From the NCBI GenBank assembly GCA_024998595.1, contig JACOEK010000003.1, positions 434,001 to 498,000 of the forward strand: 64,000 nucleotides of DNA, read 5' to 3'. Within the stretch, counting starts at the first letter, position 1. Every line of letters starts with the position of its first letter. The position numbers and the translations under genes are program-made. Positions 32,174 through 35,592 of this stretch are shown one piece after another. The notes under the pieces are model-generated. The model was given only the letters and a program-made list of their open reading frames with translations. It was not told the origin of the DNA and made no database searches. The stretch is from Nitrospira sp. (GTDB lineage: Bacteria > Nitrospirota > Nitrospiria > Nitrospirales > Nitrospiraceae).

Positions 32174-33205
32174 CTAGAACGTATACGTCAGGCCAACCGT
32201 GGGACCATGTCTCAGCGTTTGGAACTGCGTCAACGGCGCGGTGGCGGTCGACCCGTCTGAGCCGTACAGTTTCCACTGATCATTGACGAGCACGCGATTC
32301 CACCAGATGCGATACCCGCCCGTGAGGTAGAGCCGCTCCCAGATTTTCACCCGCAGGTTAAAATCCGAGTTGGTGCCGATCCCGAGACCGGTCATTCTAA
32401 AACTTGGATCTTGCGCAAGGTCGGTACGGAGGTGATGCACGTCCTCATTGTTTAAATAGGACAGCAGCATCGCCACCTTTGCTTCGACGCTGACGCGGGG
32501 ATCGATTTTATATTCCAGCTCTCCGCCGACGCGTCCCGAAAACCAGGTGGTGGTATTCGTAATGACTGCCTGATTGCGAAATCCGACTGTGCCGGCAGGA
32601 GAACAGCGGAATTCCGAACTGGGCGATGAGGCGGTCGTACATTCCGCTTGGGTCACCCCTGTGGCCACATGGCGCTCCCGCCAGTACTGTAAACCGGCAA
32701 ACACCCCCAGACTCCCCTTATTATCCTGGAAGGTGTGCGCCGTCACGCCCACATCACCATTGAGGTACCAGAGATTGTCCCCGCCGATGTCGCTGTAGGT
32801 TCGCGAAAAGCGGTGTTCTCCGCTCACGGTGGCTCCTTGAGACGCAGCTCCCTGCGCGCTGAGAAAATCGTCATCTGTGAGACGGCCTCCGCCGATGGCC
32901 CCGTACCCGAAGGCGCCTCGGAAAAATATCTTGTTCTTCAACTGCACCTTGCCCGTTATCTCGGTCACGTTCGTCCCGGTGTCTTTGTATTTCAGCTTGG
33001 AACTGGGATTCCCCAAGTTGGCGTCCAGGCCGGACGCATTGTGGCTCCAGATTGTTTCACCTTGGCTGAACCATTCGGAAATTTTGAGATCGACCTGCGC
33101 AATCGAGGAAGACGGCGCTCCGGGAACTTCGGCCCCGGCCGAATCCGGGCTGTACCACGCCAGGCATGCGCATATCGCGCAGAGCAGACATCGCAACGGC
33201 ATCAT
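32174..33205 (-). CDS. Outer-membrane beta-barrel protein
   Basis: 343 residues. A signal peptide (CLLCAICACLAWYSPDSAGA) is followed by amphipathic beta strands alternating with glycine/asparagine loops, and the C-terminus ends in GPTVGLTYTF with a terminal Phe, as in barrels folded by BamA. A family with porin-like or omptin-like size; I cannot assign function. It is transcribed alone, opposite to the helicase genes. Confidence 0.7.
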   Translation of the reverse strand: MMPLRCLLCAICACLAWYSPDSAGAEVPGAPSSSIAQVDLKISEWFSQGETIWSHNASGLDANLGNPSSKLKYKDTGTNVTEITGKVQLKNKIFFRGAFGYGAIGGGRLTDDDFLSAQGAASQGATVSGEHRFSRTYSDIGGDNLWYLNGDVGVTAHTFQDNKGSLGVFAGLQYWRERHVATGVTQAECTTASSPSSEFRCSPAGTVGFRNQAVITNTTTWFSGRVGGELEYKIDPRVSVEAKVAMLLSYLNNEDVHHLRTDLAQDPSFRMTGLGIGTNSDFNLRVKIWERLYLTGGYRIWWNRVLVNDQWKLYGSDGSTATAPLTQFQTLRHGPTVGLTYTF

Positions 33206-33644
33206 AGGTGAGCCACTCCCTTACCATCCGGGCCAAAGACGTGTCCGCATGACCGCGAGACTACGTATCCCGGCCGGAACAGCGCGCCCACTGATACCCT
33301 ACCTGTCGGGCATGGTCAACAACTTTCTCGGCCCCGGCCGGATCTATCACCTGCCGTTGCGAGGAGTTCGTTCGAGGACAACCGAAAGGATTCGTCTTAC
33401 GCAGACAGGCCTTCCGATTTTGTACGCAGAAGTGCCTCGACCCTACAGGCGGAAAAAATTTCCTAGAGCATTTCTACGAGAGACAGTTCCACGCAAGGTA
33501 CGTGCAGAGAGTGAAATTTTTGCTTGCCTATTCGCGTTTGATCCGTTAGGTTCGGCTCTGAAAGATATCCTGACGGGATTCTCACCGAACTCCGCTGAGC
33601 GATTCCCGACAATCAATTAAGAAGAACGCCGAAGCAATCTGTTG
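33206..33644. other. Long upstream region of the sigma-54 gene
   Basis: About 440 bases between the divergent barrel gene and the promoter at 33645. No protein gene is evident; a long ORF from 32877 is antisense to the barrel gene. The region is AT-richer in part (33450-33530) and is where an enhancer-binding protein of the sigma-54 promoter would be expected; I cannot define its site. Confidence 0.4.
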
Positions 33645-33660
33645 TGGCACGCCTGTTGCT
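33645..33660 (+). promoter_or_regulatory. Sigma-54 promoter of the proline-rich secreted protein
   Basis: TGGCACG (33645-33651), four bases, TTGCT (33656-33660): this is the full -24/-12 consensus. Transcription should begin near 33671, giving a leader of about 47 bases that contains an AAGGGAGT ribosome binding site 12 bases before the ATG at 33718. It is the only exact consensus of this type that I found in the window. Confidence 0.8.
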
Positions 33661-33717
33661 CACCGACAATTGTTTCCATTTTTCAATTCAGGAAGATCAC
33701 CTAAGGGAGTACAGACT

Positions 33718-35400
33718 ATGACAGCACAGCATTTCAGACCGATTCAGCATCCACCACGCATCATGCGGCGACATGCGGCGGGACATCTTGTGGTCTTGAT
33801 GCTGATGTTGTGGCTGTGTGACCTTGTTGCCGGAGGAACCGGCGCTCTGGCCCAGAATATCGTCAGCACGCCTAGCGCCCTTTCATTCACGGTGGCGCAG
33901 GGAGGCACAGTCTCAGGAACCGTCAGCCTGAAGAAGTCGAGCACCGACCAACATAGTTACCTCCTCAGCACGAACCAGGGCTGGATTTGGCTGAACCCGG
34001 CTTACGGCAGCACACAGACCATTACCACGGAAACAGACTCCCTAACTGTCACGGTGAATACCTCGGCGATGGGGCTCGGAGTGGGGACCTATTCCGGAGT
34101 CGTGTACATCGGAGAATCGGGCCCTGGCGTGTCAACCCTCTTACGCATTCCCGTGACCACCACGGTGACCGCAGCGGGCAGCACGCCACCACCCCCACCA
34201 CCTCCATCAACTACTCCCCCACCGCCCTCGACGACACCGCCCCCGCCGTCCACGACTCCTCCACCTCCGCCGCCCGCCGCAGCGACGCCGCCTCCCCCGC
34301 CGCCGACCGGTTCACTGACGCCCATGCTGCAGGCCTTCCCGTCCGCACTTGCGCTGACCGCCGCGAAGGGCAATACGGCCACCGGTGTGTTCAATTTGCA
34401 AAAGTCCAGCACGCAACAAAGCACTTACAGCATTAGCGCCAACCAGGCGTGGACGGCGTTAAACCCGCCCTACGGCAGCACGCAGACCATTACCACGGAA
34501 ATCGATCCCATCACGGTCACCGTCAACACGTCCGCCATGAACGTGGGAAGCTACACGGGGGTCGTCTATATCGTAGAAAGCGGGCCTAATGGATCGCAGA
34601 CCTTGCGCATCCCCGTCTCGCTGTCCGTCCTCGCCAGTGGCAGCGCGACGCCGCCACCGCCGCCATCAACCACGCCGCCGCCACCCTCGACGACGCCGTC
34701 CACGACTCCTCCACCTCCGCCGCCCGCCGCAGCGACGCCGCCTCCCCCGCCGCCGACCGGTTCACTGACGCCCATGCTGCAGGCCTTCCCGTCCGCACTT
34801 GCGCTGACCGCCGCGAAGGGCAATACGGCCACCGGTGTGTTCAATTTGCAAAAGTCCAGCACGCAACAAAGCACTTACAGCATTAGCGCCAACCAGGCGT
34901 GGACGGCGTTAAACCCGCCCTACGGCAGCACGCAGACCATTACCACGGAAATCGATCCCATCACGGTCACCGTCAACACGTCCGCCATGAACGTGGGAAG
35001 CTACACGGGGGTCGTCTATATCGTAGAAAGCGGGCCTAATGGATCGCAGACCTTGCGCATCCCCGTCTCGCTGTCCGTCCTCGCCAGTGGCAGCGCGACG
35101 CCGCCACCGCCGCCATCACCGACTGGAGGCGCCACCTCGCCGCCACCACCTCCTTCGGGAACCACAACCGGCACGGTCACAGTGATGTGGAATGCGAACA
35201 CCGAAGCGGACCTGCAGGGCTATCGAGTGTACGTCGGCACCAGGTCCGGCGCGCGCACGCAGGCCTTCGATGTCGGCAATGTCACCTCAACCCGTTTGAC
35301 GCTGCCGATAGGCTCCACCTATTTCTTTGTGGTAACGGCCTACGATAAAAGCGGCAATGAAAGTTCTCCATCGGGAGAGTTAAGTCGAAGCCTGTTCTAG
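33718..35400 (+). CDS. Secreted proline-rich protein with BACON-like and FnIII-like domains
   Basis: 560 residues from the ATG at 33718, which has an AAGGGAGT site. N-terminal export signal (LVVLMLMLWLCDLVAGGTGALAQ). Three related beta domains of about 110 residues follow (each with W-x-LNP-x-YGSTQTITTE and TVTVNTSAM), of the type seen in BACON-like adhesion or carbohydrate-binding modules, separated by PPPP/TTPP linkers. Domains 2 and 3 are identical at the DNA level over 425 bases. The C-terminus is a fibronectin type III-like module (TVMWNANTEADLQGYRVYVGT). Cell-surface or extracellular role is likely; binding target unknown. The gene is controlled by a sigma-54 promoter. Confidence 0.8.
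   Translation: MTAQHFRPIQHPPRIMRRHAAGHLVVLMLMLWLCDLVAGGTGALAQNIVSTPSALSFTVAQGGTVSGTVSLKKSSTDQHSYLLSTNQGWIWLNPAYGSTQTITTETDSLTVTVNTSAMGLGVGTYSGVVYIGESGPGVSTLLRIPVTTTVTAAGSTPPPPPPPSTTPPPPSTTPPPPSTTPPPPPPAAATPPPPPPTGSLTPMLQAFPSALALTAAKGNTATGVFNLQKSSTQQSTYSISANQAWTALNPPYGSTQTITTEIDPITVTVNTSAMNVGSYTGVVYIVESGPNGSQTLRIPVSLSVLASGSATPPPPPSTTPPPPSTTPSTTPPPPPPAAATPPPPPPTGSLTPMLQAFPSALALTAAKGNTATGVFNLQKSSTQQSTYSISANQAWTALNPPYGSTQTITTEIDPITVTVNTSAMNVGSYTGVVYIVESGPNGSQTLRIPVSLSVLASGSATPPPPPSPTGGATSPPPPPSGTTTGTVTVMWNANTEADLQGYRVYVGTRSGARTQAFDVGNVTSTRLTLPIGSTYFFVVTAYDKSGNESSPSGELSRSLF
34244..35118 (+). repeat. Exact 425-bp direct duplication inside the secreted protein gene
   Basis: 34244-34668 and 34694-35118 are identical at every base I compared, with a 450-base offset (150 codons). 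The unit carries a whole beta domain plus part of a proline-rich linker. The lack of silent differences indicates a very recent duplication or ongoing gene conversion. Confidence 0.9.
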
Positions 35401-35463: not shown

Positions 35464-35506
35464 TTTGAGCCCGCTCCGAAGGAACGTGTCTTCGAGCGGG
35501 CTCAAA
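35464..35506 (+). terminator. Long hairpin between the secreted-protein gene and the tRNA
   Basis: TTTGAGCCCGCTCCGAAG (35464-35481) pairs with CTTCGAGCGGGCTCAAA (35490-35506), a 17-bp stem with one bulge and an 8-base loop. AAAAG follows instead of a T-run. It starts 63 bases after the stop codon at 35400 and ends 10 bases before the tRNA, so it may terminate the gene transcript or bound the tRNA transcript. Confidence 0.6.
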
Positions 35507-35516
35507 AGTGTGAGAA

Positions 35517-35592
35517 GCGCCCGTAGCTCAATGGATAGAGCATCTGACTACGGATCAGAAGGTTACAGGTTCAAGTCCTGTCGGGCGCACCA
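35517..35592 (+). tRNA. tRNA-Arg (ACG)
   Basis: 76 bases including the encoded CCA. Acceptor GCGCCCG pairs with CGGGCGC; D-arm GCTCAATGGATAGAGC; anticodon stem TCTGA/TCAGA holds the loop CTACGGA with anticodon ACG; T-arm ACAGG TTCAAGT CCTGT. An A discriminator precedes CCA. Good structure and all invariant positions present. Confidence 0.95.

Follow-up and report, generated by a model that had tools for sequence, protein, structure and literature searches.

Organization of the locus and the encoded protein

The window, a 64-kb stretch of a Nitrospira genome, contains a plus-strand gene at 33718-35400 for a predicted secreted protein of 560 amino acids. The assignment of the gene was based on its conserved start and on the ribosome-binding site AAGGGAG (33703-33709, plus strand), which was conserved among the orthologues. 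An alternative TTG start at 33670 was rejected as it lies upstream of this conserved ribosome site. The divergent neighbour (32174-33205, minus strand), which weakly matched a family of outer-membrane proteins, shares with this gene an intergenic region of approximately 500 bp.

The signal peptide (33775-33855, plus strand) was recognized from a hydrophobic helix at residues 20-37, seen both in the sequence and in the structure model, and from the cleavage-like site ALAQ at residues 43-46; sites of the ALAQ type were found in most orthologues. Four domains follow on the plus strand. The first is an Ig-like, BACON_2-type domain (33859-34170), assigned from the strands in the structure model and from Pfam, and the second is a BACON_2 domain (34327-34632) matching PF19190 with an E-value of 1.7e-9, the best stretch being residues 205-285. 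The third, also BACON_2 (34777-35082), is identical to the second at the DNA level, and the C-terminal one (35167-35397) is fibronectin type III-like. The protein scored 37.9 bits against PF19190 (gathering score, 25), and BACON_2 was matched at E <= 0.001 in 18 of 19 orthologues. The C-terminal domain matched fn3 with an E-value of 3.9e-5, its score of 24.2 bits being just below the Pfam cut-off of 25, and also matched the chitinase A1 domain in PDB (1k85, E 5e-4). The structure model, used for fold class only as its mean pLDDT was 62.7, contained three beta-sandwich domains and the fourth C-terminal domain, separated by low-confidence proline-rich linkers. Ig-like chains of various types were retrieved by the structure search with this model.

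Domains 2 and 3 are covered by an exact direct repeat of 425 nt (34244-34668 and 34694-35118, shift of 450). Judging from a motif count, the copy number of the domain differs from one to four among the orthologues, and it appears to change through expansion and contraction of such repeats. Two orthologues, L068 (G016) and L078 (G028), had frame breaks within or just past the proline-rich repeats, one of them ending in ...TPPPRRRPAR; these could be assembly errors or slippage-type frame changes in C-rich tracts.

The family was present in only one of the 29 genera sampled within the order, and a peptide-pattern scan detected it only in Nitrospira-type records. Searches of the literature on Nitrospira for proteins with BACON or FN3 domains turned up no paper on this gene. 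BACON-domain tandem-repeat proteins with variable copy numbers have been described in crAssphage and gut phage lineages (PMC6949934). The Nitrospira protein resembles them in its tandem BACON domains of variable number, whereas it is chromosomally encoded, bears a signal peptide and poly-proline linkers, and ends with an FN3-like domain. The first-pass annotation had called the product a proline-rich surface protein. Its proline runs and signal peptide were indeed present, although the description was incomplete, as the proline runs link Ig-like BACON_2-type domains; the surface location is a prediction. Carbohydrate binding has been proposed for BACON domains generally. An adhesive or structural role at the outer surface or in the matrix is most likely for the product.

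The sigma-54 promoter and its conservation

The sequence TGGCACGCCTGTTGCT at 33645-33660 on the plus strand corresponds to TGGCACG-N4-TTGCT, an exact match to the sigma-54 consensus. The -24 GG (33646-33647) and the -12 GC (33658-33659) are separated by 10 bases in the context TGGCAC-N5-TTGCW, and their positions predict a transcription start at approximately 33671. The resulting leader to the ATG at 33718 is 47 bases long, with AAGGGAG lying inside it. Both the full consensus and the 47-base leader reported in the first-pass annotation were thus borne out.

The match to the consensus by itself was weak evidence and no proof. TGGCACG-N4-TTGCW occurred once in the window, at 33645-33660, and twice in the 4.23-Mb genome, compared with one occurrence of the reversed control pattern; base composition alone predicts about one exact match per genome by arithmetic. 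Sites with one mismatch numbered 66 genome-wide versus 55 for the reversed control, which was near background. The second exact match, TGGCACGGCTGTTGCT (L001, G000:C6:340651-340666), is located upstream of a very short ORF resembling a membrane peptide.

The orthologues and their upstream DNA from 24 Nitrospira genomes were then aligned. All ten specified positions of the sigma-54 site were invariant in the 24 orthologues, while only 11 of the 73 flanking positions between the upstream dyad block described below and the ribosome site were so. The hypergeometric probability of this difference was approximately 1.5e-7, a value that ignores shared ancestry. The distance from the GG to the ATG was 70-74 bases in 23 of the 24 orthologues, which were those with a recognized ribosome motif.

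An independent case was provided by a paralogue with the same repeat architecture on contig C6, where the first base of TGGCATGGCGGTTGCT lies 49 bases upstream of the ATG. This site, TGGCA[CT]...TTGCT, was kept in all 20 genomes examined. The genome encodes one RpoN (Sigma54_DBD score of 190.9 bits; cut-off, 22.8), and a site of the same type, TGGCATGTCGATTGCT, is found 45 bases ahead of flgF in the flgFG operon, a classical kind of sigma-54 target. The one exact match expected per genome and the near-control number of one-mismatch sites would be compatible with a chance origin of the consensus at 33645. We nevertheless regard such an origin as extremely improbable, given the full conservation in 24 orthologues and the independently conserved site at the paralogue. 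It was the conservation, rather than the consensus match, that was decisive in taking the sigma-54 promoter as real. The genus-wide conservation, the paralogue and the presence of RpoN strongly supported the earlier proposal that this secreted protein is under the control of sigma-54.

A conserved dyad block upstream of the promoter

A search for an enhancer dyad in the upstream region (33206-33644), as the first-pass annotation had recommended, detected a conserved dyad-like block of 45 bp at 33568-33612. The block, not assigned to a strand, contains the imperfect dyad CGGGA..CTCA-N11-TGAG..TCCCG with its core CTCA-N11-TGAG at 33581-33599, and 24 of its 45 columns were invariant in the alignment of the 24 orthologues. 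It spans approximately -103 to -59 relative to the predicted sigma-54 start; enhancer-binding proteins usually bind about 60-100 bases before the start. The block is a candidate activator site, where an enhancer-binding protein would most likely bind.

The dyad core was unique in the genome, all other matches having at least three mismatches. A regulon sharing this core was rejected, as matches with three mismatches numbered six, close to the three found for the control. The dyad and the upstream region of the paralogue had no 12-mer in common above the control level, and an activator site shared by the two genes was rejected on this ground. Since the dyad is not repeated in the genome and has no 12-mer in common with the paralogue, neither a regulon nor a shared activator was visible. 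Upstream of the sigma-54 site of the paralogue (L135-L154), other blocks are conserved, CTGCTCCAACTTGCAC and GGCTCGTGACGCGGCTTTCTGGCG, which differ from those of the 33718-35400 gene, and this difference suggests that a different activator may act there. Approximately 30 proteins in the genome gave long matches to the NtrC-type activator model. As the matches listed for this model included none within the 64-kb window, a local activator gene was rejected.

The block could instead work as a hairpin in the leader RNA of a transcript from the probable second promoter P1 (33524-33552, see below). It lies just 3' of the start expected for P1, and CGGGA/TCCCG together with CTCA/TGAG can form a hairpin. 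The predicted fold, however, was only modestly more stable than that of shuffled sequences (z -1.97), no base pair showed compensatory changes, the covariation term was slightly unfavourable, and no Rfam match was detected. The lack of an Rfam match and of compensatory changes led us to reject a leader RNA or riboswitch, a reading that we consider unlikely. The dyad block behaves like conserved DNA and not like RNA.

A probable second promoter and the shared intergenic region

The dyad block is one of two conserved blocks of the intergenic region besides the sigma-54 site. The other is a putative sigma-70-like promoter, P1 (TTGCCT-N17-TAGGTT, 33524-33552, plus strand), identified by its conservation approximately 110 bp upstream of the sigma-54 promoter and absent from the first-pass annotation. 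P1 was present in all 24 orthologues, with an invariant -35 element and a spacer of exactly 17 bases. Positions 1, 2 and 6 of the -10 element (T, A and T) were invariant and positions 3-5 varied, the pattern to be expected of a selected -10 element of the sigma-70 type. The sequence ATTTTT, likewise conserved, lies just ahead of P1 at 33516-33521. The T-rich block was found in the genome at this site only. A scan for consensus promoters did not report P1, its hexamers being too weak. The conservation pattern suggests that P1 is a second promoter, so that sigma-54 may not be the sole source of transcripts.

P1 might even be the main promoter, with the sigma-54 site minor or rarely used. Its conservation is at least equal to that of the sigma-54 site, as seen in the invariant TA...T and the fixed 17-base spacer. 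Its hexamers are nevertheless poor in comparison with TTGACA/TATAAT and were not called by the scan, and the retention of the sigma-54 consensus in all 24 orthologues would be unexpected if that site were unimportant. We accordingly judge a dominant P1 to be somewhat unlikely and retain the sigma-54 site as the principal promoter, with P1 as a probable addition.

On the opposite side of the intergenic region, a promoter-like element of the divergent gene, TTGACC-N17-TATCAG, is located at 33291-33319 on the minus strand, and 27 of the 50 columns of 33280-33329 were invariant.

Comparison with PEP-CTERM genes and other sigma-54-dependent systems

The locus is similar in layout to two known sigma-54-dependent systems. 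pepA of Aquincola tertiaricarbonis is an RpoN-dependent PEP-CTERM gene with a TGGCAC / CTGCTT -24/-12 promoter, a mapped start and a predicted upstream enhancer (PMC9850573). Like pepA, the Nitrospira gene is predicted to encode a secreted surface or matrix protein, and it has a -24/-12 promoter with an upstream candidate enhancer. The PEP-CTERM cis-regulatory region of Proteobacteria is also similar, as an upstream conserved block is followed by a sigma-54 site and a single gene for an exported protein (PMC1569441).

Membership of the gene in the PEP-CTERM/PrsK-PrsR regulon would be in line with this layout of a single gene, a long upstream region and a conserved block 30-90 bases before the sigma-54 site (PMC1569441), and with the three exosortases in the genome. 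The sorting signal, on the other hand, was absent from the protein, which had no NCBIfam PEP-CTERM match, and from all 19 orthologues; most of the complete orthologues had C-terminal ends like GNESSPSGELSRSLF. The best PrsR candidate reached 483.8 (cut-off, 502.6) and had no neighbouring kinase that scored as PrsK, and the best PrsK candidate scored 144.8 against 300. PEP-CTERM motif 1, which ends in TTTACA, is confined to Proteobacteria (PMC1569441), and it was not seen at the required place upstream of the 33718 gene. In the absence of the sorting signal, and with PrsR and PrsK below the curated cut-offs, membership was rejected as very improbable. The Nitrospira gene thus differs from pepA, whose product bears the PEP-CTERM signal and is linked to PrsK/PrsR, and from the cis-regulatory region of Proteobacteria in the nature of its upstream block, in its phylum and in having no sorting signal.

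Sigma-54 has been presented as a controller of the bacterial exterior, tied to exported and envelope functions (PMC3162934). The present gene shares this link, although the published association is a general one that concerns genes other than this family. Sigma-54 control of exported functions is already an established theme, and the promoter described here is a well-supported further case with no new mechanism.

Proposed regulation and its significance

These results make it probable, in our judgement, that 33645-33660 is a genuine sigma-54 promoter transcribing 33718-35400, with an enhancer-binding protein likely acting on the dyad block, a probable second, sigma-70-like promoter, and a surface product. 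RpoN-RNA polymerase would be held at 33645-33660 as a closed complex, which an enhancer-binding protein, most likely on the dyad block, would open. P1 would probably yield a second transcript, basal or differently timed, running through the dyad; as this transcript crosses the dyad, an activator bound there might modulate it as well. Exported via its signal peptide, the protein would take the form of an elongated chain of Ig-like BACON_2-type domains with proline-rich spacers and a terminal FN3-like domain.

Nitrospira are widespread nitrite oxidisers whose growth in treatment plants takes place in flocs and biofilms, and to our knowledge little is known about their regulated surface proteins. 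Together, the genus-wide promoter, the putative site of its activator and a paralogue likewise under sigma-54 offer a handle on what turns such proteins on. Control of the gene in biofilm or exopolysaccharide conditions, as formerly suggested, is conceivable. A more speculative model, which we hold to be improbable, is that the two BACON-repeat surface proteins of Nitrospira, a family restricted to the genus, constitute a dedicated output of sigma-54. A single conserved activator site would then both open the sigma-54 promoter and gate read-through from the sigma-70-like promoter, as a two-sigma switch for cell aggregation.

Further sites were noted elsewhere in the genome and in the window. 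TGGCATGTGAGTTGCT (L011, G000:C6:360523-360538), approximately 146 bases upstream of a di-haem cytochrome c peroxidase-family gene, is possibly a further sigma-54 target. Downstream of the 33718-35400 gene, a long inverted repeat (35467-35504; GAGCCCGCTC...GAGCGGGCTC) lies between a promoter-like element, TTGACC..TATAAC, and the tRNA-Arg gene at 35517-35592.
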